A stretch of DNA of 55,950 bases, from contig JAFGXN010000041.1 of the NCBI GenBank assembly GCA_016936615.1, positions 1 to 55,950 on the forward strand, written 5' to 3'. The translations under genes and the position numbers were made by a program. Below, piece after piece: positions 2,525-2,745 of this stretch. The stretch is from Spirochaetales bacterium. Its GTDB lineage: Bacteria > Spirochaetota > Spirochaetia > JAFGXN01. A model generated the notes under the pieces. The model did not search any database. It saw only the letters and a list, made by a program, of their open reading frames with translations, and was not told the DNA's origin. The stretch's first letter is position 1; each line of letters begins with the position of its first letter.

Positions 2525-2745
2525 CCTCTTCCTTCGCGCCCTCGCGTCTTCGCGTGAGACTCCTCTTTGCCTTGTCTTGATCGGCCGTATTTCTTCGCGT
2601 GAGATATCTTCCTTGCATTGCCTTGGCTCGACAGATTGCTTCTCTCTTCCGCGCCAGCGGGCGTAGGGGTGCTTTGCAGTCCGCAGGACCGTAGCGAAGC
2701 GAAGCCCTGCAGCACGCGGCCGACGAAGTCGGGGCGCCCATCTTC
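2525..2745. repeat. GC-rich intergenic island with two diverged copies of 'TTCGCGTGAGA...TTGCCTTG' and a multi-hairpin module
   Basis: Marked GC increase against AT-rich flanks; 'cttcgcgtgaga' occurs twice (about 2547 and about 2594); hairpins GTCC-GCA-GGAC (2679-2689), GCGAAGC twice (2694-2705), CCGAC-GAA-GTCGG (2720-2732). Confidence 0.75.

Follow-up and report, generated by a model that had tools for sequence, protein, structure and literature searches.

The 55,950-base stretch of DNA analysed here (the window) contains a block at 2651-2739 with a GC content of 73%, compared with 36% for the window, and so conforms to the GC-rich block in AT-rich surroundings described in an earlier reading made from the letters alone (the sequence-only reading). 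The block is flanked by a gene for a BspA-type leucine-rich-repeat protein that ends at 2523 and by an endonuclease/exonuclease/phosphatase gene that starts at 2819, both on the plus strand. A minus-strand open reading frame at 2469-2807 spans the block and has no Pfam match, and a coding role was rejected. No tRNA or tmRNA was detected in the window, Rfam gave no match there at the gathering score, searches of the block against plasmid and phage collections gave no match, and a literature search by its sequence letters returned nothing relevant. Immediately next to the element, 2524-2605 is occupied by degenerate copies of another dispersed repeat, CTTCGCGCCTTCGCGTCTTCGCGTGAG, which has about 10 more copies in the same genome (also at L002-L010). 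The start of the contig (2-478) contains the tail of a GKxEGxLEG-type repeat protein, which we take to be an Rpn-like protein; its match to Yae1_N probably reflects low complexity.

Direct reading of the plus strand confirmed the hairpin GTCC-GCA-GGAC (2679-2689), at the position given previously, as well as CCGAC-GAA-GTCGG (2720-2732) and a CGCC/GGCG stem (2652-2663). The two hairpins have GNA triloops and correspond to arm 2 and arm 1, respectively, of a frame shared with related elements, arm 1 being the hypervariable arm position. A pairing of GTGCTttGCA (2669-2678) with TGCAGCAC (2708-2715) had been proposed to form an outer stem; the letters are present, but L028, the nearest relative, has not kept the pairing. 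That reading overlooked a better outer stem, here termed P1, which is formed by GCGCC (2651-2655) and GGCGC (2733-2737), and is present both in the MFE fold and in the cross-genome covariation. Two overlapping GCGAAGC motifs (2694-2700 and 2699-2705) are also present as described, but the mini-hairpins they were thought to form are absent from the predicted fold, in which 2694-2701 pairs with 2670-2677; comparison of copies identified 2694-2705 as the conserved core of the family, GGAGCGnnAGCGGAG.

Within P1 are two further stems. P2 pairs GCG (2657-2659) with CGC (2715-2717), occurs in the MFE fold, and corresponds to alignment columns 8-10 with 31-33, where relatives have GGG/CCC or GTG/CAC. 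P3 pairs GGGG (2666-2669) with CCCT (2705-2708), including one G-T pair on the plus strand, and is assigned from the 6+6 loop spacing found in relatives, in which P3 covaries. The window copy thus has the 5-bp outer stem of the family, GCGXY/Y'X'CGC, with a single unpaired T (A on the plus strand) before the 3' side (2651-2656 with 2733-2737), followed by the 3-bp P2, the 6x6 loop, and the 4-bp P3 (2657-2669 with 2705-2717). Read on the minus strand, the whole element (2651-2739) runs GGGCGCC, arm CCGAC-TTC-GTCGG, P2 GCG, loop TGCTGC, P3 AGGG, core CTTCGCTTCGCTACG, arm GTCC-TGC-GGAC, P3' CCCC, loop TACGCC, P2' CGC, T, and GGCGC; its plus strand corresponds to the sense strand of the Rfam motif Flavo-1. 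The single-sequence MFE fold already contained P1, P2, and both arms.

The unusual stability that had been attributed to GNA-triloop hairpins was not reflected in the folding energy of the block. RNA folding gave a z-score of -0.79 (42 of 200 dinucleotide shuffles were as good), and DNA folding against dinucleotide shuffles was likewise ordinary, with z-scores of -1.40 for the plus strand (22 of 200) and +1.22 for the minus strand (181 of 200). The two GNA-loop hairpins are real, and they occupy the variable-arm places of a conserved frame, but their folding energy is ordinary. Given that the energy is no better than that of shuffled sequence, a stability criterion alone would reject the block; its conservation in relatives rescues it.

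A BLAST search of 198 related genomes with 2620-2750 as the query yielded short matches with E values down to 3e-6. Five loci in three genera (L025, L026, L028, L029, and L036) have a layout in common with the minus strand of the window, and when the L029 element served as the query, three genomes of a single genus yielded dozens of copies. Matches at L030-L032 and L035 look like chance matches inside coding DNA and were rejected. In the window-minus orientation, the family layout consists of GGGCGXY, the arm 1 hairpin, P2 (3 bp, usually GGG), the loop CTTTSC, P3 (4 bp), and a core such as CTCCGCTATCGCTCC, followed by arm 2 and further hairpins, P3', the loop TCCAAT, P2' (CCC), an unpaired T, and Y'X'CGC. 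The spacings of stems and loops in the window copy are those of its relatives, and its variant loop is common to L028 (TGCTGC) and L189 (TGTTGC). The two genomes of the family to which the genome of the window belongs (G001 and G002) contain similar sub-types, GGGCGCG..CCGCGTCGACGGCGGG..CCGCTCGCGC. A third sub-type of the frame, GGGCGTCCCGGC-TTC-GCCGTCGGCGCCCTCCGAG..GGGCGCCTGACGC, is also found in both of these family mates (L242 at 10749, L244 at 9703, L254 at 9751, L257 at 5849, and L261).

The stems of the frame covary. Among 61 copies whose 5' end had been found without requiring pairing, the variable dinucleotide XY of P1 and its partner were complementary in 55, compared with a mean of 11.8 and a maximum of 21 in 1000 shuffles. 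The corresponding figure for a larger set was 75 of 99 (19.1 after shuffling), and complementarity was complete (21/21) in metagenomic viral contigs chosen by the 3' side and core only. P3 was fully paired in 29 of 31 copies, with six different pair sets. We also prepared a composite alignment of 34 distinct rows with the arms cut out, eight of the rows, including that of the window, having been cut by hand to the frame. Pairing extended to 95.1% of cells in this alignment, compared with 80.1% (sd 1.1) after shuffling, and P1, P2, and P3 together had two-sided changes in 57 cells, compared with 14.4 by shuffling, although the shuffles overstate the significance of such contrasts because the copies are related to one another. 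The covariation score was 0.414 (0.129 shuffled, and at most 0.080 for structures slid along the alignment, for which pairing dropped to 45-70%). Kinship among the rows does not by itself explain the many independent pair types. These comparisons showed that three short stems (P1, P2, and P3) and the internal-loop sequences are conserved as a frame around variable hairpin arms, and they support, mainly across genomes, the structured dispersed repeat with compensatory changes that the sequence-only reading had suggested. Among frame copies in IMG/VR viral contigs, those at L361, L384, L368, and L396 have as inner arm a very long palindrome or a long insert of tens of bases.

These results bear on whether the block is simply a chance GC-rich palindromic stretch without relatives, with a coincidental match to the frame, a reading that we regard as improbable. 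It would fit the ordinary folding energy of the block and the single occurrence of its exact form in its own genome, and a descriptor of the frame gave 47 matches over 894 kb of DNA from unrelated sources, most of it rich in GC. Within the window, however, the descriptor matched only at 2651-2739, and dinucleotide shuffling of the block produced a match in 7 of 20,000 cases, a figure that is somewhat post hoc in that the tolerance for P3 was chosen to let the window copy pass. The presence of BLAST relatives with the same layout in other genera, and of a similar sub-type in the family mates, also argues against chance.

The 3' signature of the element, CTNCAATCCCTNNCGC, was found in 70 of 297 genomes of the class, with 1 to 677 occurrences each and about equal numbers in the two directions; the reversed pattern gave one match over the 297 genomes, and single matches can be chance. 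Copy number is high in some genomes of the class (677, 272, 249, 200, and 114) and only one or two in others, with 21 and 20 copies in the family mates G001 and G002, respectively. Copies had been expected in the host genome: the exact window form is single there, but two canonical full elements (C9 and C99), 94% identical to each other, are also present, and the window copy is a third, diverged one. A census of three Bacteroidota genomes found no copies. A scan of GTDB genomes with CTACGCCCGCTNGCGC was discarded, the pattern being too weak: it returned 120 rows, mostly high-GC DNA, and no convincing copy. Other repeats were encountered during these searches. Pattern matches at L206-L208 end in CAATCCCTGACGC inside another repeat, with GTAGAGACGCCC..GGGCGTCTCTAC arms. 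The genome of the window also contains a clustered multi-hairpin repeat, GGATTAGTTCGAAGAACTAATCCGTCC ... GGGCAGTGCG ... CTGCTAAGCAGGA, with perfect hairpins and varying tips (L005, L007, L013, and L016), and a recurring intergenic block in which ATCGAG is followed by a variable hairpin and CGGGCGGTT (L003, L004, L006, and L013).

Flavo-1 is an RNA family, Rfam RF01705, listed for Bacteroidetes (Weinberg et al. 2010, PMC2864571). With cmscan, we detected Flavo-1 in L064 (55.1 bits), on the strand opposite to a neighbouring frame copy, and the highest score for a sibling form in relatives was 72.8 bits, the cut-off being 42. A search of 24 genomes with the Flavo-1 model gave more than 100 matches in each of four genomes of one genus. 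The model had no match in the window and none in the genome of the window at an E value of 0.001 or lower, and the window copy shares P1 and P2, with identical spacing, with the Flavo-1-matching copies L064 and L063. By the model, then, the window copy falls outside Flavo-1 itself and is instead one of its relatives.

This relationship raises the possibility that the copies are RNA genes or UTR modules, with selection acting on the RNA fold of a Flavo-1-type noncoding RNA or UTR element. The status of Flavo-1 in Rfam, the bit scores of the sibling form, the conserved loops, and the covarying stems would all suit such an RNA, as would the frequent start of the element just past a stop codon: the GGGCG end lies close behind same-strand stop codons (median of about 28 versus about 200 nt, p = 8e-6), and this proximity could be a hint of some function in transcripts. 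Orientation relative to flanking genes, however, was exactly balanced, at 24 versus 24 for 45 scorable elements, and copy number ranges from one or two to hundreds among genomes. Flavo-1 matches in the transcriptome of Flavobacterium psychrophilum are sense and antisense indistinctly, with many outside transcribed regions (PMC9723704), and so are not tied to transcripts.

The arms point in the same direction. Among 63 distinct versions of arm 1, 97% of 714 pairs were Watson-Crick and only six were of the wobble type, statistics that depend on a hairpin finder that penalises mismatches. In genome G080, nine elements whose cores differ by no more than four bases have quite different arms, such as TTTTTGGCGC-TTT-GCGCCAAAAA, CTCCCCGGCGC-TTC-GCGCCGGGG, and TTTTTGGGCCGCC-GGAT-GGCGGCCCAAAAA. 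Given that selection on an RNA helix should leave wobble intermediates, the scarcity of wobble pairs suggests replacement of whole palindromes. G-T asymmetry was tried as a test of the strand, but the wobble pairs were too few to decide (4 versus 2). GNA triloops were more frequent on the Flavo-1 sense strand (29) than on the other (8, p = 7.5e-4); they were also plentiful in hairpins outside elements in the same genomes (21 of 64). RNA-type tetraloops (GNRA/UNCG) were rare (4 of 51), which speaks against an RNA, as do the hypervariable arms almost free of wobble pairs.

Some of the element sites are also unstable on one side. Identity between the family mates G001 and G002 is about 85-98% across shared flanks. 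Both flanks were kept around the element at three sites (L242/L251, L244/L254, and L237/L269), and the GGGCG-side flank was kept and the other not at five (L246/L260, L248/L253, L240/L255, L236/L271, and L247/L265). For L247, the element and downstream flank found in the partner genome are those of L246; between the two genes that flank L243/L252, one genome carries another sub-type plus a copy in the opposite orientation. Such loss or exchange of flanks indicates that the elements mark points of rearrangement. No empty site with a target duplication was found among the G001/G002 site comparisons, and the breaks in synteny could have arisen by homologous recombination between repeats. Together with the balanced orientation and the hypervariable, 97% Watson-Crick arm 1, these breaks favour a DNA-level dispersed element over an RNA gene. 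The structured RNA proposed in the sequence-only reading thus has a counterpart in Flavo-1, an Rfam RNA, but genomic behaviour and the published transcriptome (PMC9723704) argue for DNA, and we consider the RNA alternative unlikely.

We therefore interpret the block, with some confidence, as one old and diverged copy of a Flavo-1-related dispersed structured repeat that acts at the DNA level. The element most likely works through a folded strand or cruciform with a putative partner enzyme. One strand, probably that of the Flavo-1 sense (plus in the window), would fold when single-stranded, or both might form an extruded cruciform; a putative DNA-processing factor would recognise the element by its fixed stems and loops, and the arm hairpins would be freely replaceable provided that they are palindromic. 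Dispersal and exchange of copies at element sites would then give rise to the broken synteny. A site for binding of single-stranded DNA or for recombination is the best functional reading of the sequence, as a candidate function. The window copy itself is most likely a relic that has no current role for the adjacent genes, and the greater interest lies in the wider family, where near-perfect palindromes of hypervariable sequence are set in a fixed frame.

Known systems of folded DNA offer two alternatives. An element of the REP or IS200/IS605 type, moved by a Y1 transposase (RAYT), had been proposed. Frame elements resemble REP sequences of the GTAG and CGTC families in being small intergenic hairpin repeats, often downstream of genes, with patchy and high copy numbers (PMC3733652), and Y1_Tnp was found in some high-copy genomes. 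The Y1_Tnp domain (PF01797) was nevertheless absent from the genome of the window (G000, 94% complete) and from both family mates (with their 21 and 20 copies), as well as from copy-carrying G149, G156, and G113, and it was present in copy-free G003 and G023. Instead of a GTAG- or CGTC-tagged palindrome of 20-40 bp, the unit is an untagged three-stem frame that bears at least two arms and, in most copies, spans about 80-145 bp; and its arms have almost no G-T pairs, whereas these are often seen in GTAG REP stems (PMC3733652). A REP or IS200 substrate is thus very improbable.

The other alternative, an integron attC-like site whose folded single strand is recognised by a tyrosine recombinase, seems to us the most remote. 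Like attC sites of Treponema, in which structure is kept more than sequence (PMC3607928), frame elements have a folded-strand architecture with a variable middle, lie directly behind stop codons, and have one unstable flank. The AAC/GTT triplets that define attC (PMC3607928) are absent from the outer stem of the window copy (GCGCC/GGCGC), however, and occur at the P1 positions only where the variable pair is TT/AA. Frame copies are dispersed, not arranged in cassette arrays. Nor does integron integrase (TIGR02249) track copy number: most genomes rich in copies lack a match at the cut-off, with scores above it in copy-free G003, G025, and G046 and below it in G000, G001, G002, G080, and G050.

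The comparison with Flavo-1 is closer. We tentatively propose, as a conjecture still open to considerable doubt, that Flavo-1, together with its relatives, forms a single cross-phylum class of DNA elements and not a set of RNA genes. Their palindromic arms would be repeatedly rewritten as new near-perfect palindromes inside an unchanged core, and the putative hairpin-processing machinery responsible would have no relation to either Y1 transposases or integron integrases. The analysis places Flavo-1, an orphan RNA motif in Rfam, within a larger dispersed family, and grounds for treating it as DNA come from the balance of orientations, the scarcity of wobble pairs, the hypervariability of the palindromes, and the breaks in synteny. 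Were the proposal correct, hundreds of Flavo-1 matches per genome would need relabelling, and a hairpin-spreading or -rewriting enzyme would still have to be found in Bacteroidota and in the class of the window. Flavo-1 has the same layout on the opposite strand, GGGATTGnAGCGG ... variable hairpin ... AGCGGAAAGCCCG. The window copy, which the model does not match, differs in its loops (TGCTGC and TACGCC for CTTTCC and TCCAAT) and has GCG/CGC as P2 where Flavo-1 has GGG/CCC. Copies of the Flavo-1 type (L064, those in G001 and G002, and those in viral contigs) are enclosed by the same outer stem P1. The Rfam model is confined to the inner portion of one form of the element and includes neither P1 nor arm 1.
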